Shown here piece after piece: positions 2,804 to 21,333 of a DNA stretch of 46,150 nt. The notes under the pieces were generated by a model. That model searched no databases. It was not told the origin of the DNA and saw only the letters and a program-made list of their open reading frames with translations. Within the stretch, counting starts at the first letter, position 1; every line of letters starts with the position of its first letter. Origin of the DNA: an uncultured Piscirickettsiaceae bacterium (lineage in GTDB: Bacteria > Pseudomonadota > Gammaproteobacteria > Methylococcales > Cycloclasticaceae); NCBI GenBank assembly GCA_913061075.1, contig CAJXSK010000012.1:1-46150 (forward strand), written 5' to 3'. The position numbers were made by a program, and so were the translations under genes.

Positions 2804-4005
2804 ATGTTAAACGCTTATATTTATGACGGCGCACGAACTGCTTTGGAAAATACTGCGGAGCACTGGCGCATGTTAGGCCCGACGACCTTGCCGCCAGCGT
2901 GATAAAAGCGCTGGTATTACGCAACGACTTTGATCCAGCAATAATTGATGAGGTCGTCTTAGGTTACGTGTGTCAATCCGGTGAAGATAGCCGCAATATC
3001 GCGCGTTACGCAAGCTTGTTAGCCGGTTTACCAGTAACTGTTCCAGGCCAAACCATTAATCGCTTATGCGCCAGCAGCCTAGCTGCTATTGTTGATTGTG
3101 CCCACGCTATTACCTGTGGTGAAGGCGACGTTTACATTGCCGGAGGTGTTGAAAGTATGACACGCGCACCGCTGACGTTTAATAAAAGTAACTCCGCCTA
3201 CAGCAAAGATATAAAAATTTACGATAGCGCGATTGGCGTACGGTTCCCCAACCCTAAGATTGGCAAACAGTTTGGCCATGAATCCATGCCTGAAACAGCC
3301 AACAATGTTGCTAAAGCCGAGAACATTAGTCGCGAAGCTTGCGATGAGTTTGCCTTAAAGTCTCAGCAAAAATGGCAAGAAGCCACTAGCAACGAATATT
3401 TCAAAGATGAAATCATTCCAATACACATTCCGCAAAAACGTGGCAAACCCGACATTATCGTGGATACCGATGAGCACCCCAGAGCGGAAGGCAATATAGA
3501 CAAAATGGCCGGTATGAAACCTTTATTTGATGACGGCGTTATTACAGCGGCGAATGCATCCGGTATTAATGATGGCGCAGCAGCCGTATTAATGGCCAAC
3601 CAAGCATTCGGTGAAAAACATAACATCAAACCATTAGCTCGCGTATTAGGCGGTGCCGCCGCGGGTATTGAGCCGTCACTGATGGGTCTTGGCCCAGTCC
3701 CTGCGTGTAACAAAATTCTTAAACGCTTAGGTTTAAGCTTAGAGCAGATGGATGTGATTGAAATTAACGAAGCATTTGCAGCTCAAGTATTGGCTGATTT
3801 AAAACAACTTGGGTTGTCTGCTGACGACCCAAGAATCAACCCAAATGGTGGCGCTATAGCAGTTGGGCACCCTCTAGGTGCTTCAGGCGCAAGGCTTGTA
3901 TTAACCGCCGCAAAGCAATTGCAAAGAACGGGCGGACGTTATGCCCTTATCTCAATGTGCGTTGGTGTCGGTCAAGGTTTAGCCGTTGTGATAGAACGAG
4001 CTTAA
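2804..4005 (+). pseudogene. Acetyl-CoA acyltransferase (thiolase), frameshifted near the N-terminus
   Basis: From the ATG at 2804, with a GAGGGTGG ribosome binding site just upstream, the frame reads MLNAYIYDGARTA and then runs out of phase to a TGA at 2900-2902. The homologous sequence continues in the next frame from about 2845, through CGALAHVRPDDLAAS, to the stop at 4005. Restoring one T at 2843-2844 (GCT TTT GGA) gives a continuous thiolase of about 400 residues. The rest is intact: nucleophilic Cys in NRLCASS, the GHPLGASG His motif and the C-terminal CVGVGQG Cys. It would thiolytically cleave a 3-ketoacyl-CoA, perhaps of the beta-ketoadipyl-CoA type. A GTG at 2899 could start only an N-terminally truncated product. 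The lesion is real decay or a sequencing deletion. Confidence 0.8.
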
Positions 4006-8480: not shown

Positions 8481-8882
8481 ATGACCAAACATTCCGATCA
8501 AACTAATAAAAGCGGCCCTGATATGATTTATCGTTCTTTTTTAGATCGTCAGATTTTTGCCCTACCAAAGTGTACGAAATGTAATCAGTTTCATTTCTTC
8601 CCACGCGTCGTATGCCCACATTGCGGCGAATTTGAACTCGAATGGTTAGCCGTTTCGGGCAAAGGCCAAGTTTATTCAACCACGACTATTCGCCGCAAGC
8701 CTGAACGTGGCGGTCCTTATAATGTTTGTCTTATTACGTTAGAGGAAGGCCCTCGTATGATGAGCCGTATTGAAGGTATTGATGCTGAATCAGTAAAAAT
8801 TGGTGATAAGGTAACTGCCTGTATTAACAATGATAGTGAAGAATCATTTGTTGTCTTCACGCCGACTAAGGAAGCCAATTAA
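8481..8882 (+). CDS. DUF35 Zn-ribbon/OB-fold protein, partner of the thiolase-fold protein
   Basis: A 133-residue protein with the rubredoxin-like zinc ribbon formed by CTKC and CPHC (about residues 31-54), followed by an OB-fold carrying the GKGQVYSTTTIRR segment typical of DUF35. DUF35 proteins form stable complexes with thiolase-superfamily partners, as in the steroid aldolase Ltp2 with the ChsH2 DUF35 domain, benzoylsuccinyl-CoA thiolase BbsAB and the ibuprofen proteins IpfD/IpfE. Its stop overlaps the start of the partner gene by one base, as expected for subunits made in equal amounts. It is first in a plus-strand run driven from the 8173-8480 control region. Confidence 0.88.
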   Translation: MTKHSDQTNKSGPDMIYRSFLDRQIFALPKCTKCNQFHFFPRVVCPHCGEFELEWLAVSGKGQVYSTTTIRRKPERGGPYNVCLITLEEGPRMMSRIEGIDAESVKIGDKVTACINNDSEESFVVFTPTKEAN

Positions 8883-10033
8883 TGGCACATAATTTAAGAG
8901 GTTCTTCAGCTATTGTTGGTGTCGGCTTAGCCGGTTGTGGTGAAGCACACGGTAAAATGCCGCTGGATATTCTTGCCGAAGCCACGCATAACGCATTGGA
9001 CGATGCCGGTTTAAAGCTGAGCGATATAGACGGCCTTTTTACCGGCTCGTCTTATCATTTTATGCCCACCCTTAGCACGGCTGAATACTTAGGCATTAAA
9101 CCGCGGTTTTCCGACGGTAGCATGGTTGGTGGCTCGTCTTTTGTTGCACACACGCTCAACGCAGCAATGGCGCTTAAAACTGGCTTATGTGATGTGGCGC
9201 TTATTTGTTACGGCAGTAATCAACGTACGGCTGGTGGCAAATTAGCCACCATGTCAGAACAGCAAATTTATGAAGCACCCTACAAACCAAGATACCCCAT
9301 TAGTTCATACGCATTGGCCGCTGCACGGCATATGTATCAATACGGCACTACCCGCGAACAGCTCGCCGATATTGCAGTAGCCGCGCGCCAATGGGCGCAA
9401 TTAAACCCTGCAGCTTTTGCACGTAAGGATTTAACACGCGAAGACGTTCTTAATTCAAGAATGATTAGTGACCCACTATCATTGCTGGACTGCTGTCTCG
9501 TTACCGACGGTGGCGGTGCCGTTATTATGGTATCGAGTGAGCGAGCCAAAGACTTTCCCAACAAACCCGTTTATCTATTAGGTACCGGTGCCGCACATTG
9601 GCATCGCCAAATCACCCAAATGCCCGACCTGACGGTTACCGCTGCGAAAGAATCCGGCGAGCGTGCATTCAAGATGGCTGGTGTTACGCAAAACGATATT
9701 GATGTTGTAGAGGTCTATGACGCGTTCACCATCAACACTCTATTGTTTTTAGAAGACTTAGGGTTTTGCGCAAAAGGCGAAGGCGGCCCCTTTGTTTCCA
9801 ACGGCAACATTGCCCCCGGTGGTAGCTTGCCGGTTAATACTAATGGTGGCGGTTTATCCTGTGTTCACCCGGGTATGTACGGTATTTTCATTCTTATAGA
9901 AGCTATTCAACAACTGCGCGGCGACTGTGGCGCACGACAAGTTAATAATGCTGAAGTAGCTTTAGTACATGGCAATGGCGGCGTTTTGTCCAGCCAAGTC
10001 ACCTCAATATTTGGCACTGAGGAGGTGCTGTAA
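8882..10033 (+). CDS. Thiolase-superfamily acyl-CoA aldolase/lyase (Ltp2/SCP-x-like), lacking the nucleophilic Cys
   Basis: A 383-residue thiolase-fold protein. In true thiolases the N-terminal half carries a nucleophilic Cys in a C-A/G-S-S/G loop; here the corresponding loop reads VGGSS (about residues 82-86) and has no Cys. The C-terminal half keeps VVEVYDAFTIN and NTNGGGLSCVHPG, as in Ltp2-type proteins. This favours retro-aldol or deacylating C-C cleavage of a CoA ester over CoA-dependent thiolysis. The neighbouring DUF35 gene supports this. Known relatives remove acetyl- or propionyl-CoA from steroid side chains or from ring-dioxygenated 2-arylpropionyl-CoA. Which substrate applies here is not known. 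The next gene follows directly (TAAATG). Confidence 0.85.
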   Translation: MAHNLRGSSAIVGVGLAGCGEAHGKMPLDILAEATHNALDDAGLKLSDIDGLFTGSSYHFMPTLSTAEYLGIKPRFSDGSMVGGSSFVAHTLNAAMALKTGLCDVALICYGSNQRTAGGKLATMSEQQIYEAPYKPRYPISSYALAAARHMYQYGTTREQLADIAVAARQWAQLNPAAFARKDLTREDVLNSRMISDPLSLLDCCLVTDGGGAVIMVSSERAKDFPNKPVYLLGTGAAHWHRQITQMPDLTVTAAKESGERAFKMAGVTQNDIDVVEVYDAFTINTLLFLEDLGFCAKGEGGPFVSNGNIAPGGSLPVNTNGGGLSCVHPGMYGIFILIEAIQQLRGDCGARQVNNAEVALVHGNGGVLSSQVTSIFGTEEVL

Positions 10034-11227
10034 ATGTCTAAATCATCACTTGAAGGAATAAAAGTTGTCGATTTATCTCGGGTACTCGGCGGCCCATTGT
10101 CCACCCAAATACTCGGCGACCACGGCGCAAACATTATCAAAGTAGAACCACCAGCGGGTGATGAAACACGTGGCTGGGGCCCTCCTTATCACGAACGTGG
10201 TAGCGCTTATTATGACGGCGTTAATCGCAATAAAAAATGTATTGCTTTGGATATGCGCCAAGCGGAAGCACATGAGATATTATTTCGTTTGCTCGAACAA
10301 GCCGACATACTCGTCGAAAACTTCAAGGTGGGCACGTTTGAAAAATGGGGCATTGGCTTTGAAGACGTGCTACAGAAAAAATTCCCACGATTAATCCATT
10401 GCCGCATTACCGGCTTTGGTAGCACCGGCCCCTATGCTGGATTTCCAGGTTACGATGCCGTTGCGCAAGCTACTTCCGGCTTAATGAGCATTAATGGCGA
10501 CCCAGACCGGCCACCCGTTCGTATTGGTGTGCCAATTGTCGACCTAACAACTGGCATGAATGCCGTTATCGCTATTTTATTAGCTTTGCATGAACGGAAC
10601 ACCTCTGGCCTAGGGCAATCTATAGAAGTCAGCTTATACGATACCGCCATCAGCCTGATTCACCCCCATGCTGCCAATTGGTTTTTGGATGGCAAACCAC
10701 AAAATCGTACCGGCAGTGCACACCCAAATATAACACCTTACGACTTGCTACCAACCGCCAATGGCTATTTATTCCTAGCCATCGGTAATGACCGGCAATT
10801 TGCTGGCTTATGCAAACACCTAGGCTGTGAAAATGTGTCCAGTGACCCACGTTTTGCCATAAACGCAGATCGCGCAGCTAATAGGCTTGCTTTACGTAAA
10901 ATACTGGAAGATATACTCGCCGATAAAGACGGCAAGGCCCTCACCCAAGAATTACTGGAAAAAGGCATACCCGCAGGCTCAGTACAAACCGTGGAAGATG
11001 CCATGCAACACCCACAAACCATTGCCAGAGAAATGGTCGTTACAGACGGTGAATACCGTGGCACAGGCATCCCTATCAAACTGTCCAGAACCCCCGGGAA
11101 AATACAATTTAAACCACCACAATACGGTGAAAACAATAGCGAAATTTTATCTGCTGCTGGGTATTGTGAAGAAGAAATTCAACGCTTTAAAGATATGCAA
11201 ATAACCCTACAAAAACCTAAAAAATAA
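10034..11227 (+). CDS. CaiB/BaiF (class III) CoA-transferase, second copy
   Basis: A 397-residue family III CoA-transferase with the N-terminal SRVLGGPLSTQILGDHGA region, the GYDAVAQATSGLMS segment and the probable catalytic Asp at residue 170 in GVPIVDLTTG. It starts immediately after the stop of the thiolase-fold gene and is followed after 5 bp by an ACAD. It is homologous to, but clearly different from, the CaiB at 6985-8172. The two may form a hetero-oligomer, as BbsE and BbsF do in benzylsuccinate metabolism, or serve two acids in one pathway. The C-terminus is Lys-rich. Confidence 0.88.
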   Translation: MSKSSLEGIKVVDLSRVLGGPLSTQILGDHGANIIKVEPPAGDETRGWGPPYHERGSAYYDGVNRNKKCIALDMRQAEAHEILFRLLEQADILVENFKVGTFEKWGIGFEDVLQKKFPRLIHCRITGFGSTGPYAGFPGYDAVAQATSGLMSINGDPDRPPVRIGVPIVDLTTGMNAVIAILLALHERNTSGLGQSIEVSLYDTAISLIHPHAANWFLDGKPQNRTGSAHPNITPYDLLPTANGYLFLAIGNDRQFAGLCKHLGCENVSSDPRFAINADRAANRLALRKILEDILADKDGKALTQELLEKGIPAGSVQTVEDAMQHPQTIAREMVVTDGEYRGTGIPIKLSRTPGKIQFKPPQYGENNSEILSAAGYCEEEIQRFKDMQITLQKPKK

Positions 11228-11232
11228 ACACG

Positions 11233-12399
11233 ATGAACTTTTCATATACAGAAGAACAAAATGCAATCCGCGACTCCATCATCAAAACGTGCGAACCCTT
11301 TGATGATGACTATTGGTTAACACGTGACCAAGAAGGCGGCTTTCCGCACGATTTTTATGAAGCAATGGCAAGCGGCGGCTGGTTAGGCATTTGCATTCCT
11401 GAAGAATTCGGTGGTTCGGGCTTAGGCATTACCGAAGCCACCATTATGCTGCGCACAGTTGCCGAAACGGGCGCCGGAATGTCCGGGACATCGGCCATTC
11501 ATATGAATATTTTTGGCTTAAACCCCATTGTTAAATTTGCAACACAAGAGCAAAAACAACGCATGCTGCCACCCATTGTGGAAGGCCGCGACAAAGCGTG
11601 CTTCGCCGTTACCGAACCCAATACCGGGCTTGATACAACCAAGCTTAAAACACTCGCCGTTCGTGATGGTGACCATTATGTTGTGAATGGTCAAAAAGTA
11701 TGGATTTCCACTGCCCAGGTCACCAACAAAATTCTATTACTTGCTCGCACAACACCACTTGAAGAGGTTGAAAAACCAACGCACGGTTTGAGCCTTTTTT
11801 ATACCGACTTTGATCGCAATGCCATCGATGCGCGTGAAATACCAAAAATGGGCCGTAAAGCAGTCGATTCCAACGAGTTATTTATCGACAACCTAAAAAT
11901 CCCACTGGAAGACCGCATTGGCGAGGAAGGCCGCGGGTTTGAATATATTCTTCACGGCATGAATGCTGAGCGCGTTTTAATTTCTGGAGAAGCTATTGGA
12001 CTTGGACACATCGCCTTAAATAAAGCTAAAACTTACGCACAAGAACGCATTGTATTTAATCGCCCCATCGGTAAAAATCAAGCCATTCAACACCCGCTTG
12101 CCATTCGCTGGGCAGAACTTGAAGCCGCTTGGCTAATGGTATTATCAGCTGCTTGGCAATACGACAATGGAAAATCTGTTGGCGTTGCTGCCAATGCTGC
12201 CAAGTACCTTGCAGGAGAAGCCGGTTTTCATGCCTGTGAAACCGCAGTTATGTCACATGGTGGTTTTGGTTATGCGAAGGAATATCACGTAGAACGCTAT
12301 TTCCGCGAATCGCTTATTCCTCGTCTGGTTCCCGTTAGCCCACAATTGGCGCTGTGTTTTATCGCTGAAAAAATATTGGGCTTGCCTAAATCTTACTAA
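11233..12399 (+). CDS. Acyl-CoA dehydrogenase, paired with the second CaiB
   Basis: A 388-residue ACAD with FAVTEPNTGLDTTKL, GQKVWISTA and MSHGGFGYAKEYHVER. Like its paralogue at 5816-6988 it lacks the IYEGTSE catalytic segment, having LVPVSPQ in its place, and ends LGLPKSY. It closes the plus-strand run DUF35, thiolase-fold, CaiB, ACAD. Its last 14 bases overlap the 3' end of the convergent MaoC gene, so the two operons meet tail to tail with no room for a terminator. It probably introduces the alpha-beta double bond into the CoA ester made by the preceding transferase. Confidence 0.9.
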   Translation: MNFSYTEEQNAIRDSIIKTCEPFDDDYWLTRDQEGGFPHDFYEAMASGGWLGICIPEEFGGSGLGITEATIMLRTVAETGAGMSGTSAIHMNIFGLNPIVKFATQEQKQRMLPPIVEGRDKACFAVTEPNTGLDTTKLKTLAVRDGDHYVVNGQKVWISTAQVTNKILLLARTTPLEEVEKPTHGLSLFYTDFDRNAIDAREIPKMGRKAVDSNELFIDNLKIPLEDRIGEEGRGFEYILHGMNAERVLISGEAIGLGHIALNKAKTYAQERIVFNRPIGKNQAIQHPLAIRWAELEAAWLMVLSAAWQYDNGKSVGVAANAAKYLAGEAGFHACETAVMSHGGFGYAKEYHVERYFRESLIPRLVPVSPQLALCFIAEKILGLPKSY

Positions 12400-12814
12400 T
12401 AACCGTGCCTTTAACAACGGCTTTCTCGCCACAATAACAAGCCAGGCTGCAGCGAGCGTATACACCATCCTCACGCTGCTCTATAGCGTCTATTTTAGCA
12501 CAAACACGTACTGTATCGCCTGGTCGCACGGGGCCAAGAAAAACGATATCTAGTTCGCCCCCATAGGCCCAGCCCTGCCAATTCCACGCCGATAACACCC
12601 GCGATACAAACGCGAGTGTTAGCAAGCCATGCGCAATCGTACCGCCAAAAATAGTGGTTTTTGCAAATTCTGGATCAATATGAAGCGGGTTAACATCACC
12701 TGATGCATCAGCATACGCATCAATCATATTTTGATCGACTGCCTCAATTAACTCTGGCAAATCATCACCCACAGAAAAGCCATTAAAATGTTGTAGCTCA
12801 TTGGTTGATGACAT
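12386..12814 (-). CDS. MaoC-like dehydratase subunit
   Basis: A 142-residue single-hotdog protein with the hydratase-2 motif, Asp and His in YADASGDVNPLHIDPEFA, followed by GGTIAHGLLTLA. Its start overlaps the stop of the preceding hotdog gene by one base. The two small proteins probably form a heteromeric enoyl-CoA hydratase, with the catalytic Asp/His in this subunit, analogous to the ChsH1-ChsH2 pair of steroid degradation. It is last in the minus-strand run ACAD, ACAD, hotdog, MaoC and overlaps the convergent ACAD gene by 14 bp. Confidence 0.87.
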   Translation of the reverse strand: MSSTNELQHFNGFSVGDDLPELIEAVDQNMIDAYADASGDVNPLHIDPEFAKTTIFGGTIAHGLLTLAFVSRVLSAWNWQGWAYGGELDIVFLGPVRPGDTVRVCAKIDAIEQREDGVYARCSLACYCGEKAVVKGTVISKI

Positions 12815-13236
12815 TATTCTTTACCCCAAATACGCGTAATCAAGCCACTTGTAATTAACTCGCCGGTCTGATTTTTTGTTTCTGTCGTCATCTCAACATA
12901 GATACGCCCTTTGCGTTCATACAACTTAAGCACAGTAGCCGAGGTATATAACGTTTCGCCAATTTTCGCTGGCCGGTGCAATTTAAAACGCTGCTTGGCA
13001 TGAATACCACCCGGTGGCCCAACGCGTGTTCGCAAGGCGTCTATCACATACACTGCTGCTAACATGGGCGGCGCAATACTGTCACCCTGCGCATCAACTT
13101 TTTGAAGTTCTACTGTCGTATCGTTGGTCGCGTTGATATACCGATCAACCACATGTTGATTAACCTCAAACCGCACTGGTGGGCTTAAAAATTCGTCACC
13201 TTCTACAAGGCTTGCGTATGTTACAAAATCACTCAT
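12814..13236 (-). CDS. Hotdog-fold (FAS1-like dehydratase, MaoC N-terminal type) subunit
   Basis: A 140-residue hotdog protein of the N-terminal MaoC-dehydratase type. It has no clear Asp-His hydratase motif of its own, so it more likely builds the substrate tunnel for its partner at 12386-12814. It begins 27 bp after the second ACAD gene. The tight coupling of two hotdog genes behind two ACAD genes suggests a heteromeric dehydrogenase followed by a heteromeric hydratase acting on one bulky CoA ester. Confidence 0.82.
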   Translation of the reverse strand: MSDFVTYASLVEGDEFLSPPVRFEVNQHVVDRYINATNDTTVELQKVDAQGDSIAPPMLAAVYVIDALRTRVGPPGGIHAKQRFKLHRPAKIGETLYTSATVLKLYERKGRIYVEMTTETKNQTGELITSGLITRIWGKE

Positions 13237-13263: not shown

Positions 13264-14394
13264 TTACAAGGAACATAAGCGTTGTAAGTGAAAATCTCTA
13301 TCACCAAACAAGGTGTTCAGCATCGTCAGGCGTTTCACATAATGCGACACGTCCAATTCGTCCGTTACACCGATACCGCCGTGCAATTGCGCCGCTTGTT
13401 CTGCCACTATCGTTCGTGCATCCGCTAAATAAACCTTTGCCGATGATACGCTTTTTGTTAATTCACTGGCATCATCACCGGTCACTTTTATGGCCGCTAA
13501 ATAAGCTAAAGAGCGCATTTGTTCCTCGTGCATAAACATATCCACACAACGGTGCTGTAACACTTGGAAGCGACTCAATGGTTGACCAAATTGTTTGCGT
13601 GTTTTTAAGTACTCAACCGTCTTTTCACGAAGCTGCGTGATAACACCTACCCCTTCTGCACAAATCGCGGCCGATGCAGAATCGATGACTGTTTGGATAG
13701 CCTCGTAAGCATTACCCAGCTCGCCGATTAAAGACGATTCATCAACCATTACATCATCAAAATGAACCTCAGATGCTCGCAAGCCATCGACCGTTTCATA
13801 ATCTCTTGTTGATAAACCCTTACTGCCTTTATCCACGATAAATAACGAAATTCCGGCTTGGCTTATGCTCTCCCCACTTGTTCGAACAGACACAATAATT
13901 TTATCTGCCGTTTCGGCATTAAACACCACGGACTTGCTGCCGGTGATGCAAAATTGGTTTCCTTTCTTTTCAGCTTTGCAAACCACATCAGCCAAGTTAT
14001 AGCGCGATTGGCGCTCTGCATAAGCAAATGCAAGTTTTAATTCGCCCCCAATAAGCGGTTCAAGTAAGGCGTGTTTTTGATCTTCACTACCTACTTGCTG
14101 AATCAGTTGGCCAGCCAATACAACTGATGCAAGGTACGGCTCAACAATAAGGCCTTTGCCTATCGCCTCCATCACCACAATCAGCCCTGTTTGGCCAAAA
14201 CCAAAACCGCCATATTGCTCATCAAACGGCACGCCCAACAGCCCCATCTCAGCAAATTGCTGCCAGTTCTCTTCGCTATAACCAATGCCTTGCCGACTGA
14301 GTTTTTGGCGTTGTTCAAAACTGTATTCGTTATGCAGAAATTTATTCAACATATCCTGCAACATGTTCATTTCTTCACTAAATTCTAAATTCAT
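13264..14394 (-). CDS. Acyl-CoA dehydrogenase, probable subunit of a heteromeric enzyme
   Basis: A 376-residue ACAD homologue with weaker conservation of the FAD and substrate loops (FAYAERQSRYNL in place of the usual TEPxxGSD) and no catalytic Glu segment near the C-terminus (TLFGDRDFHL). The partner ACAD lies 10 bp upstream. In steroid side-chain catabolism paired ACADs of this kind (ChsE1-ChsE2, FadE26-27) form alpha2-beta2 enzymes in which each chain supplies part of the active site. The degenerate motifs here suit the less canonical chain of such a pair. Confidence 0.86.
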   Translation of the reverse strand: MNLEFSEEMNMLQDMLNKFLHNEYSFEQRQKLSRQGIGYSEENWQQFAEMGLLGVPFDEQYGGFGFGQTGLIVVMEAIGKGLIVEPYLASVVLAGQLIQQVGSEDQKHALLEPLIGGELKLAFAYAERQSRYNLADVVCKAEKKGNQFCITGSKSVVFNAETADKIIVSVRTSGESISQAGISLFIVDKGSKGLSTRDYETVDGLRASEVHFDDVMVDESSLIGELGNAYEAIQTVIDSASAAICAEGVGVITQLREKTVEYLKTRKQFGQPLSRFQVLQHRCVDMFMHEEQMRSLAYLAAIKVTGDDASELTKSVSSAKVYLADARTIVAEQAAQLHGGIGVTDELDVSHYVKRLTMLNTLFGDRDFHLQRLCSL

Positions 14395-14404
14395 CTGCTG
14401 CGCC

Positions 14405-15601
14405 CTATACCCCTAACACGGCTTTTGCCATGATGTTTTTTTGAATTTCATTAGAGCCGCCGTATATGGATGTTTTGCGCCAGTCAAAATAGTGCGGCGC
14501 TAAAAATATAGCTTCTTCTGGGCCAATGGGGTCTTCTTCCCAACCGTCTAACATGACGTTTTTGTCATACGGAAAACCGTAATAGGCCACCGCTTCCATG
14601 AGCAGCGCAGTAATTGCCTGCTGCACCTCGGTGCCTTTAACTTTTAGTAAGGACGACGCTGAACCAGGCGGTTCACCAGCAGATAACTTAGACAGCACGC
14701 GCAGGTTTGTCATTTCTAAGGCCATCAACTCAACTTCAACCTCTGCTATTTTCCTTCTGAAGTTTGTATCTTTCAGCAACGGCTTCCCGTTACATTGCTC
14801 TTTTTCCGCCAATGCTTTTAACCGCTCTATTTGCTTTTTAGAACGAGGCACTTGGGCAATATTGGTGCGCTCATGTTGCAATAAATATTTAGCAATCGTC
14901 CAGCCCTCACCCTCTTTACCCACGATATTTTCTATGGGCACTTTTATCTCATCAAAAAACACTTGGTTCACCACGTGCATACCATCAACCGTGATAATAG
15001 GTTCAACAGACACACCGGGGTCTTTCATATCAACCAATAAAAAACTGATGCCTTTTTGTTTTCTATCTTCTTGACTGGTACGCGCCAACACAAAAATCAT
15101 ATCTGCGTAATGGCCATGCGTTGTCCATGTTTTAGTGCCATTTAAAAGATAATGGTCGCCTTTGTTTTCTGCACGTGTTTGTAATGATGCAAGGTCTGAT
15201 CCCGCATTCGGTTCTGAATAGCCTTGCGCCCACCAGACATCACTTTTCAAAATATCAGGTAAATATTTCTGCTTTTGCTCTTCCGTTCCAAACGCTAATA
15301 GGACAGGCCCAATCATCACTAAACCAAAAGAAACTAATCGCAAACAATTTGCCGCCGCGCACTCCTCTTCAAATATATATTTTTGAACAGGCGACCAGCC
15401 CGTGCCGCCATATTGTTCTGGCCAACTCGGTGCTACCCAACCCTTTTTATATAAGATTTTTTGCCACGTCACATAGTCTGACTTTTTTAAGGCAACACCT
15501 TTGGCCACTTTTTCTTGAATATCTTTGGGGTAATTTGTTCGCAAGAATTCCCTTACCTCAAGCTTAAATGCTTGCTCTTCAGGGCTATAATTTAAATCCA
15601 C
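14405..15601 (-). CDS. Acyl-CoA dehydrogenase, partner subunit
   Basis: A 398-residue ACAD with well-kept motifs: GYSEPNAGSDLASLQ, GTKTWTTHGHYAD and a C-terminal SIYGGSNEIQKNI, in which Gly replaces the Glu of the YEGT catalytic segment. It is the first gene of the minus-strand run and starts 190 bp from the divergent MmgE/PrpD start I chose, with the palindrome at 15704-15717 between them. It is probably the main flavin-binding chain of the heteromer with 13264-14394. Large, ring-containing acyl-CoAs are the usual substrates of such pairs. Confidence 0.88.
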   Translation of the reverse strand: MDLNYSPEEQAFKLEVREFLRTNYPKDIQEKVAKGVALKKSDYVTWQKILYKKGWVAPSWPEQYGGTGWSPVQKYIFEEECAAANCLRLVSFGLVMIGPVLLAFGTEEQKQKYLPDILKSDVWWAQGYSEPNAGSDLASLQTRAENKGDHYLLNGTKTWTTHGHYADMIFVLARTSQEDRKQKGISFLLVDMKDPGVSVEPIITVDGMHVVNQVFFDEIKVPIENIVGKEGEGWTIAKYLLQHERTNIAQVPRSKKQIERLKALAEKEQCNGKPLLKDTNFRRKIAEVEVELMALEMTNLRVLSKLSAGEPPGSASSLLKVKGTEVQQAITALLMEAVAYYGFPYDKNVMLDGWEEDPIGPEEAIFLAPHYFDWRKTSIYGGSNEIQKNIMAKAVLGV

Positions 15602-15717: not shown

Positions 15718-15791
15718 ATTACACAAGCGATTGATTATCTTTTATGCTATTTTCAGTTCCATTGACGACATACCACAGGTTTCAAGCCATT

Positions 15792-17180
15792 ATGCCCAAG
15801 CATCATTCTTCTAGTATATCTACTCAACTCGCTCGTTTTGTTACCCAACTTGAGCTTAAAAACATTCCAGCACCTGTACAAGAAAAAGCATTGCAACTCA
15901 TTTTAGATGGCACCGGTATTGCCTATGCTTCAAGCAATTATGAATTCAGCAAAACAGCCTTACAAGCCTTACGAGCATTTGCTGAACCCGGCTCATTTCA
16001 TGTGCTAGGTACTGGCGAAAAGATGCCGTATCGAGATGCAGCCTTGGCGAATGGCTTACTCATCCACGGGCTTGATTTTGATGATACCCATGTCGCCGGC
16101 GTAGTCCATATGACATCAACCGTGTGGCCTTGCGTACTAGCGGTTGCTGAAAAAACCAATGCGTCTGGCGAACAAATGCTTGAAGCGTATATTGCCGGCA
16201 TGGAGGTTGGCGCTCGCATAGGAATGGTTGCTAAAGGTGCCTTTCACCAAGTGGGACACCACCCAACAGGAATAGCAGGCGCATTTGCCTGTAGCCTCGT
16301 AGCGGGCAAACTAATGGGCTTATCTGAGCAGCAGTTAGTTATGGCTCAAGGCATTGCGCTTAGCATGGCTTCGGGTAACTTTGAATTTCTTGAAGATGGC
16401 GCATGGACAAAACGTTACCATCCTGGCTGGGCTGCCGTGTCCGGCATTATGTCCGCCACCTTCGCTCAGGCTGGTTACATTGGCCCTAACCTGCCGTATG
16501 AAGGGCGCTTCGGCTTATATAAAAGCCACCTAAATGAACTCGATTCGCAATGTGATTATTCACTAGCAACAAGTGATCTTAATAAAACATGGGAAGTGAT
16601 GAATGTTGGCATTAAACCGTATCCTTCCTGCCATTTCACCCACGCAGTGATTGATGCCACCATCCAACTCACTAAGCAATATTCTTTGACAGCCGAGCAG
16701 GTAGAAAGCATTACAACACTAGTACCTGAAGAAGTGATTAAAACCGTTTGTGAACCACTTGCCACTAAGCAATCACCTACGTGCGCATATGATGCACAAT
16801 TCAGCGCGCCCTATTTAATTGCCATCGGTTTGATTCGTCAGGAATTTAGCCTACAAGACCTTGAGCCCGAACCATTAAAAGACCCGATTGTGCTAGCATT
16901 AGCCAAAAAAGTTAACTATCAAGCAGACCCTGACTCTGGCTTCCCAACGTATTATTCTGGTGAAGTACGTATTAAGCTAAAGGATGGACGCATATTACAA
17001 CAACGTGAATTCAAAAACCGCGGCTGTGCCGACAGGCCTTTGTCTAGCAATGAAATAAACAATAAATTTCTTAAAAATTGCACCATGACCATATCTTTAG
17101 AAAAGGCCAACCAGATTAAAGACACCATTTTACAAATGACTACTTTCAAATCAGTTAACGAACTCATCAATATTTTATAA
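15792..17180 (+). CDS. MmgE/PrpD-family protein
   Basis: A protein of about 462 residues from the ATG at 15792. A frame start at 15744 adds 16 residues that do not look native and would leave almost no leader after the promoter-like sequence at 15715. The family includes 2-methylcitrate dehydratase, cis-aconitate decarboxylase and iminodisuccinate epimerase, all acting on tricarboxylic or related acids. The family-typical HGLDFDDTH and CHFTHAVIDATI segments are present. It opens a plus-strand run with DUF2889 and a CMD-like gene. Its role could be handling a branched dicarboxylate or tricarboxylate made by the island's lyase; this is inference. Confidence 0.85.
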   Translation: MPKHHSSSISTQLARFVTQLELKNIPAPVQEKALQLILDGTGIAYASSNYEFSKTALQALRAFAEPGSFHVLGTGEKMPYRDAALANGLLIHGLDFDDTHVAGVVHMTSTVWPCVLAVAEKTNASGEQMLEAYIAGMEVGARIGMVAKGAFHQVGHHPTGIAGAFACSLVAGKLMGLSEQQLVMAQGIALSMASGNFEFLEDGAWTKRYHPGWAAVSGIMSATFAQAGYIGPNLPYEGRFGLYKSHLNELDSQCDYSLATSDLNKTWEVMNVGIKPYPSCHFTHAVIDATIQLTKQYSLTAEQVESITTLVPEEVIKTVCEPLATKQSPTCAYDAQFSAPYLIAIGLIRQEFSLQDLEPEPLKDPIVLALAKKVNYQADPDSGFPTYYSGEVRIKLKDGRILQQREFKNRGCADRPLSSNEINNKFLKNCTMTISLEKANQIKDTILQMTTFKSVNELINIL

Positions 17181-19101: not shown

Positions 19102-20699
<1,598 letters not shown>

Positions 20700-20760
20700 A
20701 ATGGCATCAGTATCACGTCTTCTTATTAATTAATACTCTATACGTACAAAGGAACTTTCT

Positions 20761-21333
20761 ATGTCCTCTAACTTCGATATCCAACAAGTTATTTCAGCAT
20801 CAAAAACCGACTCTGCCCTACAACATGAAATTGAGCAGTTTTATTACCGAGAAGCACTTCTACTAGACAATATCTTTTATGAAGATTGGTTTGCACTACT
20901 TGATGAAGACATCCATTACTTTATGCCCATTCGTCGTAATGTCATGAAACGTGGGCGCGTCCGCGATACCGATGTTAGCGAATATACAAATATTGATGAG
21001 TTTGCTCATTTTGATGATGATATCAACACCATGCGGGGACGCTTGCGCAAGCTGCAAAGTGACTTTAGCTGGTCTGAAAACCCTGCGTCTAGAACGCGCC
21101 ATACCGTTTCAAACGTCATCATTCACCCTGCTGAAGAAGAAAACTGTTTTGAAGTTTGTTCTGCGTTTTTGGTATACCGAAACCGCTTAGAAACCCAAGT
21201 AGATATTTTTGCAGGAGAACGCCACGATGTACTTCGACGTGCTGATAATAATTTAGGTTTTAAAATTGCAAAGCGTACACTACTGTTAGATCAAAGCACT
21301 GTTTTATCCAACAACCTAAGCATTTTCTTCTAA
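20761..21333 (+). CDS. Ring-hydroxylating dioxygenase beta subunit
   Basis: A 190-residue small subunit of the BphE/HcaF type, with [15 protein letters not shown] at the N-terminus, [21 protein letters not shown] and the closing RTLLLDQ-containing segment. Beta subunits support the alpha3-beta3 hexamer of ring-hydroxylating dioxygenases, which insert both oxygens into an aromatic ring to form a cis-dihydrodiol. AAGGA precedes the start, and the gene is intact although its alpha partner is broken. The ferredoxin and reductase genes that usually follow are absent; the next gene is an EamA transporter on the other strand. Confidence 0.9.

Follow-up and report, generated by a model that had tools for sequence, protein, structure and literature searches.

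The gene pair at positions 8481-10033 of contig CAJXSK010000012.1 (assembly GCA_913061075.1), from an uncultured Piscirickettsiaceae bacterium of the Cycloclasticaceae, probably encodes a DUF35-dependent heteromeric retro-aldolase that would cleave a β-hydroxyacyl-coenzyme A (CoA) in a hydrocarbon-acid pathway of Cycloclasticus. The stretch analysed, referred to below as the window, comprises the first 46,150 nucleotides of that contig and belongs to a genome of 2.26 Mb. As an earlier note on this DNA had read from its letters, the pair consists of one open reading frame (ORF) for a DUF35 protein and one for a thiolase-fold protein, and the translation of the latter carries VGGSS at residues 82-86 and retains the motif HPG. 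The analysis places HPG at residues 329-331. Two replacements in the thiolase-fold protein carry the proposal: Gly84 occupies the column of the thiolase nucleophile, and the His-Asp-[Ala/Cys]-Phe of the thiolases in this branch is replaced by Tyr279-Asp-Ala-Phe.

The Gene Pair

The two genes overlap by one base, position 8882 being common to the TAA stop codon of the DUF35 gene and the ATG of the thiolase-fold gene. The DUF35 ORF matches the Pfam families OB_ChsH2_C (64.5 bits) and zf-ChsH2 (38.8 bits), each above cut-off, and its best solved relative is the DUF35 of TcChsH2 (6ok1_B, E = 4.7e-14). The spacing of its zinc-ribbon cysteines is that of the canonical C4 type, whereas Shy has a C3H1 finger instead (PMC12329534). 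The thiolase-fold ORF matches Pfam Thiolase_C_1 above cut-off (240 bits) and Thiolase_N below it (19.7 bits, cut-off 26.4), and belongs to the family NF004811/PRK06158 (674.3 bits, curated cut-off 421), to which NCBIfam gives the name acetyl-CoA acetyltransferase. The nearest named loci (L033-L040) come from Cycloclasticus and other marine gammaproteobacterial metagenome-assembled genomes and show 86-93% protein identity. Within the genus, a full-length copy with at least 88% identity is present in 11 of 18 genomes, the window's own counted, and fragments (90-92%) occur in two more. Polaromonas sp. JS666 carries a copy with 73.6% identity.

Absence of the Nucleophilic Cysteine

In an alignment of the thiolase-fold protein to thiolases of the archaeal and SCP2 types, the column of the catalytic cysteine falls on Gly84 of V-G-G, so that the absence of the nucleophile claimed by the earlier note is borne out. 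The protein has eight cysteines (residues 19, 103, 109, 204, 205, 296, 327, and 349), all of which were rejected as nucleophile since none aligns with that column, including Cys19, Cys103, and Cys109, the three that the note had singled out for this check. Family-wide conservation was followed in 80 loci picked by similarity to the query, many of them from Roseobacter relatives with one shared cluster. Gly83, Gly84, Ser86, Tyr143, Cys205, His241, Tyr279-Asp-Ala-Phe, Cys296, and His329-Pro-Gly are invariant in all 80, and Cys19 (12/80), Cys109 (38/80), and Cys103 (76/80) vary. Glycine also occupies the nucleophile column of TcLtp2 and CtSal; in CtSal, where it replaces the thiolase cysteine, thiolysis is impossible for the enzyme according to its authors (PMC12329534). 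Among the hallmarks of thiolases, the window protein thus lacks the nucleophilic cysteine (Gly84) and the HD[A/C]F histidine (Tyr279) and keeps the (G)HP[x]G histidine (His329).

Tyr279 and the Rest of the Active Site

Tyr279 is aligned with Tyr294 of the TcLtp2 motif Y-D-H-F by both HMMER and MAFFT, and the alignment positions recover the published residue numbers of TcLtp2 (294 and 344) and CtSal (302 and 352). The equivalent tyrosine of Ltp2 and Sal is the proposed base that takes the β-hydroxyl proton, and the Tyr302Phe variant of CtSal is inactive, which is consistent with the Ltp2 tyrosine (PMC12329534, from which the residue roles for TcLtp2 are also taken). The active-site sets read Tyr/His/Tyr in Ltp2, Tyr/Cys/Gln in Sal, Tyr/Ala/Tyr in IpfD, and Tyr279/Ala281/His329 in the PRK06158 family; no description of a Tyr+His set such as Tyr279 with His329 was found in the literature searched. 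In thiolases, the HPG histidine activates the cysteine and helps to hold the enolate oxygen, at which Asn316 is also found. His329 is this same histidine, retained, and probably serves as enolate holder and/or acid with Tyr279 as the base; other candidates for the acid are His241 and His363 (75/80 family loci).

Where the earlier note had proposed retro-aldol or deacylating chemistry, the alignment, chiefly Tyr279 of YDAF, gives good support to the former, and nothing was found in support of the latter. The acylase relative PhlC keeps its cysteine, and a structure title with C88S agrees. These comparisons support Tyr279 as better evidence for a retro-aldolase than the absent cysteine alone.

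The AlphaFold model of the thiolase-fold protein, made with 51 natural sequences (mean predicted local distance difference test, pLDDT, 89.4; predicted template modeling score, pTM, 0.91), places Gly84 at the beginning of helix 84-99. Its best solved structural matches are 4u4e (Z 52.2; 1.6 Å, 350 residues), Sal-Shy 9myr (Z 52.0), and Ltp2-ChsH2 6ok1 (Z 51.1).

Distribution among Relatives

The two replacements were tabulated in a class sample that is not random, composed of database-search loci and 40 stretches hand-picked from the match list. Exclusion of matches below 80 bits and of 2 of 68 rows with less than 80% coverage left 66 rows, in which two genes are represented twice (L001 = L003, L016 = L156). 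These rows comprise 34 Gly+Tyr, 24 Cys+His, and 3 Ser+His members, together with five single other combinations. A tree of 85 sequences separates the proteins with Gly (and one with Ala) from those with Cys or Ser at a support of 0.963, and because this split is single, the difference between Gly+Tyr and Cys+His represents one ancient change rather than many.

Of the 123 Gly-bearing members, 115 have a DUF35 gene no more than 500 bp away, as do 79 of the 80 family loci; in the class sample only, the counts are 28/34 for Gly+Tyr and 8/24 for Cys+His. Since DUF35 genes are also found at this distance from 10 of 32 Cys-bearing members, this partner does not discriminate, and HPG is itself a thiolase motif. 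The earlier note had taken both as pointers to an aldolase, a use that did not survive the comparison: as proof of aldolase chemistry they were rejected, given that both occur with true thiolases.

Two further kinds of relatives were observed. The nucleophile column is occupied by serine in L138, L139, and L143, which nevertheless retain His in the 279 column, Ala in the 281 column, and His in the 329 column, and are possibly Ser-dependent or inactive thiolases. L144 (4063-6339) contains tandem degenerate thiolase-fold genes that read G/Q/P/N and G/S/S/D, neither of which is a catalytic set, with a DUF35-like gene nearby.

Gene Neighborhood

The pair opens a plus-strand operon (8481-12399) that continues with genes for a CaiB/BaiF CoA-transferase and an acyl-CoA dehydrogenase, and this operon is faced by a convergent one (15601-12386) that codes for two dehydrogenase subunits, one PimC-like and one PimD-like, and for two proteins with the MaoC fold (Table 1). 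A CaiB/BaiF gene also follows the pair in L033-L037, L040, L186, and L188-L190, and the PimC-PimD-MaoC2-MaoC1 operon also faces the pair in the congeners L186 and L189, with 72-99% identity. The matches of the PimD-like subunit in the PDB include 6wy8_A (E = 1.7e-29), which is not its best match.

Table 1. Coordinates of the gene pair, its active-site codons, and the genes around it.
Feature	Positions	Strand	Basis
DUF35 partner, zinc ribbon and OB fold (ChsH2 C-terminal type), stand-alone, 133 residues	8481..8882	+	Pfam OB_ChsH2_C, zf-ChsH2; 6ok1_B
Four-Cys zinc ribbon C-x2-C-x10-C-x2-C of DUF35	8571..8624	+	motif in translation
Thiolase-fold protein without nucleophile, proposed retro-aldolase, 383 residues	8882..10033	+	NF004811; model; 4u4e/9myr/6ok1
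Gly84 codon, thiolase nucleophile Cys position, equivalent of CtSal Gly89	9131..9133	+	alignment; 80/80 family loci
Tyr279 codon of Y-D-A-F, matching the catalytic base, Tyr294 in TcLtp2 and Tyr302 in CtSal	9716..9718	+	alignment; 80/80
Ala281 codon, where TcLtp2 has His296 (oxyanion hole) and CtSal has Cys304 (acid)	9722..9724	+	alignment; 80/80
His329 codon of HPG, position of TcLtp2 Tyr344, CtSal Gln352, and IpfD Tyr	9866..9868	+	alignment; 80/80
CaiB/BaiF (family III) CoA-transferase, operon of the pair	10034..11227	+	Pfam CoA_transf_3, 407.6 bits
Acyl-CoA dehydrogenase, operon of the pair	11233..12399	+	profile matches
MaoC hydratase subunit with D-x-N-P-x-H motif (SGDVNPLH); putative link to the pair	12386..12814	-	Pfam MaoC_dehydratas; translation
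MaoC-fold partner subunit without D-x-N-P-x-H; putative link to the pair	12814..13236	-	Pfam FAS1_DH_region; translation
PimD-like subunit of two-gene acyl-CoA dehydrogenase; putative link to the pair	13264..14394	-	TIGR03203, 380.5 bits (cut-off 652.7 not reached)
PimC-like subunit of two-gene acyl-CoA dehydrogenase; putative link to the pair	14405..15601	-	TIGR03204, 477.1 bits (cut-off 623.85 not reached)

At least two acyl-CoA dehydrogenases and a MaoC protein, labels that stand for best BLAST matches mostly of 27-54% identity, lie within 10 kb in 38 of the 55 family loci with at least 8 kb on both sides (25/80 dropped for short flanks). Such a context is found within 4 kb in 29 of 61 family loci (19/80 dropped) and in none of the 13 Cys+His class loci with 4-kb flanks (2/15 dropped). 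These counts are suggestive of a dehydrogenase-hydratase-aldolase module around the pair; its link to the pair is not fixed within the genus.

Other genes of the window and of the compared loci touch on this cluster. Itaconate-pathway-like genes (MaoC/Ich-like, CitE/Ccl-like lyase, MmgE/PrpD) flank it at 800-2691 and 15744-17180, all below the curated equivalog cut-offs, and hint at a branched dicarboxylic acid intermediate. In L034, L036 (14784-20719), L040, and L188, which are from other Cycloclasticus-like genomes, a second DUF35-thiolase pair faces the operon, with the set Gly/Tyr/Cys/His in the first three, and in L036 a biotin-dependent acyl-CoA carboxylase comes after this second pair. 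A Pseudomonas aeruginosa plasmid (NZ_CP131792; L191, 11618-21240) carries an OB-fold/thiolase pair that is 66.8% identical, has the same motifs, and adjoins an acetate-CoA-ligase-family gene, MaoC, two dehydrogenases, and an enoyl-CoA hydratase.

The window also has a thiolase gene at 2804-4005, whose product is of the PcaF type and retains its Cys and His motifs, in support of the earlier note's view that it and the thiolase-fold protein of the pair are not redundant. Its ORF at 2899-4005 is of the 3-oxoadipyl-CoA-thiolase type (NF006001, 559.6 bits, below the curated cut-off of 622, profile positions 34-399) and retains NRLCASS, GHP, and CVGVGQG. A frameshift near 2845 severs the first codons (from 2804); a congener has an intact homolog of 400 residues, and the frameshift may be an assembly error.

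Weighing the Proposed Retro-Aldolase against Other Explanations

Several observations weigh against the retro-aldolase proposal. In the active site, two of the four Ltp2 positions differ (Ala281 for His and His329 for Tyr), and replacement of Cys304 by Ala abolishes Sal activity (PMC12329534), from which it follows that Ala281 must be compensated; alanine is also found at this position in IpfD. The acetoacetyl-CoA thiolase 6esq (Z 50.6) scores so close to Ltp2 (Z 51.1) that aldolases and thiolases cannot be told apart by fold. The single split of the tree does not amount to repeated independent events, and deep supports within its Gly side are weak. As for the neighborhood, the PimC/PimD/MaoC set is absent beside the pair in two congener stretches, L188 and L190 (of which L190 extends only some 500 bases past the pair), and is not beside it in L033-L040, among which only L035, L036, L037, and L040 have at least 5 kb on both sides; L037 has a weak MaoC match (34%) and other dehydrogenases. 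The two-dehydrogenase and MaoC context is rare in the Gly+Tyr class loci with 4-kb flanks (1/14; 4/18 dropped), and the 38 of 55 family loci are not independent events, because these loci are similar to the query and many are from Roseobacter with a shared cluster. Lastly, no PRK06158-family member with a measured activity was found in the open literature, where the search yielded work on such aldolases from steroid, bile-acid, and ibuprofen degradation, most subscription papers lying outside the search.

It is unlikely that a ring-hydroxylating dioxygenase supplies the aldolase with its substrate, as happens in ibuprofen degradation, such that a dihydrodiol beside a CoA-activated side chain would be cleaved into a catechol and an acyl-CoA. 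Gly84, Tyr279, and Ala281 are common to IpfD, the window contains a ring-hydroxylating dioxygenase at 19367-21333, and a clear ipf-like operon exists elsewhere in the same genome; yet a dioxygenase alpha subunit is matched at none of the 80 family loci (BLAST with three alpha subunits; 55 loci with at least 8 kb on both sides), the alpha gene of the window is split, the window has no CoA ligase gene beside the pair, and the ipf-like role is already filled by the other pair of the genome. The split alpha gene (HcaE-like, 19367-20548) forms two ORFs, and the beta subunit at 20761-21333 gives a full Pfam match. The ipf-like operon (L113, 5480-12104; contig C6, 41979-48603) comprises genes for a desaturase-like membrane oxygenase, a methyltransferase-like protein, ring-hydroxylating dioxygenase alpha and beta subunits, a second Cys-less thiolase (Gly/Tyr/Ala/Tyr) that shares 49.6% identity with the presumed IpfD of pIBU218, a DUF35 protein, and an AMP-binding ligase. 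Its gene content suggests an arylalkanoic-acid route in Cycloclasticus, and because this operon holds a second pair, the strain may use aldolytic side-chain removal twice.

Still less probable is a real thiolase or acyltransferase, as the database name says, with another cysteine or a serine as nucleophile. The thiolase fold, the retained HPG, and the NCBIfam family name speak for it, as does the presence of Ser86, Cys205, and Cys296 in 80 of 80 family loci; against it stand the nucleophile column without Cys and the tyrosine that replaces the HDAF histidine in all 80. Ser85 is Ala in 6 of the 80 loci and a 60%-identical member (L005) has Ala at both 85 and 86, for which reason Ser85 and Ser86 were rejected as nucleophiles, and Cys296 is common to aldolases, including TcLtp2 and Sal. 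NF004811 bears its name although the 80 loci are devoid of the cysteine and the HDAF histidine that the acetyltransferase reaction needs.

A role as aldolase for steroid side chains, within an igr-type cluster, is very improbable. The gene content is igr-like (dehydrogenase pair, hydratase pair, aldolase-DUF35), and the best PDB matches of the PimC-like subunit are Tcur3483 (6wy9_A, E = 1.6e-49) and 4x28_A (E = 1.8e-48), both of them steroid dehydrogenases, but the active-site residues differ from those of Ltp2 and Sal, and the two steroid-core marker families sought in the whole genome lie far below cut-off (HsaA, 160 of 450 bits; IpdE2, 81.6 of 450 bits). On the evidence of these two markers, a steroid pathway was rejected as the substrate context. 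A C-C-forming or decarboxylating, biosynthetic role is hardly credible: aldol reactions are reversible and the related Cys-less TbSLP slowly decarboxylates malonyl-CoA, but the neighbors look catabolic (two CoA-transferases, four dehydrogenases, hydratases, and a crotonase), neither a ketosynthase nor a carrier protein was noted among the annotated window genes from 159 to 21333, and CtSal lacks malonyl-CoA decarboxylase activity (PMC12329534).

Proposed Reaction and Its Significance

The retro-aldolase proposed here would turn a CoA-bound β-hydroxyacyl substrate into a ketone or aldehyde and a short acyl-CoA, no acyl-enzyme being formed on the way. The α,β double bond would first be introduced by an acyl-CoA dehydrogenase, for which the PimC/PimD-like pair is a candidate, and a hydratase, perhaps MaoC1/MaoC2, would add water to it, giving a β-hydroxy (possibly tertiary) acyl-CoA. 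Tyr279 would then take the β-hydroxyl proton and the Cα-Cβ bond would break. His329, which occupies the place of the Ltp2 acid Tyr344, would help to stabilize the resulting acyl-CoA enolate and to protonate it. In this scheme, the role of the tyrosine and the requirement for DUF35 would carry over from published relatives, and we infer from the comparisons above the reaction of the window protein itself, the role of His329, and the link between the two operons. In this hydrocarbon degrader, the substrate would presumably be a branched, alicyclic, or arylalkyl acid. By analogy, it is plausible that the cleaved group is acetyl-CoA or propionyl-CoA, as the earlier note had suggested: Sal releases acetyl-CoA, and IpfDE and Ltp2 release propionyl-CoA (PMC12329534, PMC9195938, PMC8399759).

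The chances are about even that PRK06158 and its sisters (Gly84, Tyr279, Ala/Ser/Cys281, His329) form a third catalytic class of DUF35-dependent retro-aldolases and, jointly with this, that the ancestral HPG histidine of thiolases has been re-used in them together with a new tyrosine. The residue patterns suggest that a widespread enzyme family has been misnamed as thiolase. If so, a large family annotated as acetyl-CoA acetyltransferase or thiolase would be incapable of the reaction for which it is named, and many predicted β-oxidation routes would end in an aldol cleavage. Apparent “thiolase β-oxidation” operons of marine hydrocarbon degraders and of Roseobacter plasmids would be aldolytic and bypass the 3-oxoacyl stage, which permits attack where the β carbon cannot become a ketone and may give Cycloclasticus a route for degrading branched or ring-bearing acids that block ordinary thiolysis. 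In addition, 4u4e, a solved structure without an assigned function, would gain a testable one, and thiolases would be told from aldolases in the superfamily by two residues (Cys to Gly, HD to YD).

Comparison with Known Systems

The best match of the window protein is 4u4e, a “putative thiolase” from Sphaerobacter thermophilus whose entry is of the structural-genomics kind, both in sequence (E = 4.7e-123) and in structure (56% identity over 350 residues). It shares VGGSSF, Y-D-x-F, and HPG, and differs in having Ser where the window protein has Ala in YD[S/A]F, and Tyr where it has Cys two positions ahead of the histidine. BbsAB benzoylsuccinyl-CoA thiolase and the archaeal acetoacetyl-CoA thiolase-DUF35 complex have the fold and the DUF35 partnership in common with the pair, but are genuine thiolases: Cys and HDAF are present in 7yvy, which is of the archaeal type, and BbsB and 6esq presumably retain the nucleophilic cysteine as well.

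Three retro-aldolase systems can also be compared with the pair. TcLtp2-ChsH2 (6ok1), which acts on the C3 side chain of 17-hydroxy steroids, shares the fold, a C4-ribbon DUF35 partner, glycine in place of the cysteine, and Tyr294, the equivalent of Tyr279. It differs in having His296 and Tyr344 instead of Ala281 and His329, and in a DUF35 that is fused to MaoC rather than free; as for Ltp2, a DUF35 partner is at hand in the window, encoded by the adjacent gene, the partnership being predicted from gene order. CtSal-CtShy (9myr), a bile-acid C5 side-chain aldolase, likewise shares the fold, Gly89, and Tyr302, and differs by the acid Cys304 of Y-D-C-Y and Gln352, as well as by the C3H1 finger of CtShy vs. 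C4 here. IpfD-IpfE, the ibuprofenyl-CoA dihydrodiol retro-aldolase of Rhizorhabdus wittichii pIBU218, in which IpfD was assigned by its place in the dioxygenase-DUF35-ligase operon, shares the glycine, Y-D-A-F with its alanine, and the DUF35 partner, but has Tyr at the His329 position and a genomic setting of dioxygenase and CoA-ligase genes. Disruption of ipfD prevents growth on ibuprofen, and the step is termed a retro-aldolase cleavage (PMC9195938).

C3 steroid side chains are removed by a three-activity set of dehydrogenase, hydratase, and aldolase (PMC8399759, PMC12502768). The gene content of igr-type clusters is present in the window, namely a two-gene acyl-CoA dehydrogenase, a two-gene MaoC of which one has the motif, and an aldolase with DUF35; in those clusters, however, DUF35 is part of a MaoC-DUF35 fusion (ChsH2), whereas that of the window stands alone. 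ChsH1-ChsH2 pairs an active with an inert subunit, and the MaoC pair of the window, one protein with the motif and one without, is likened to it.

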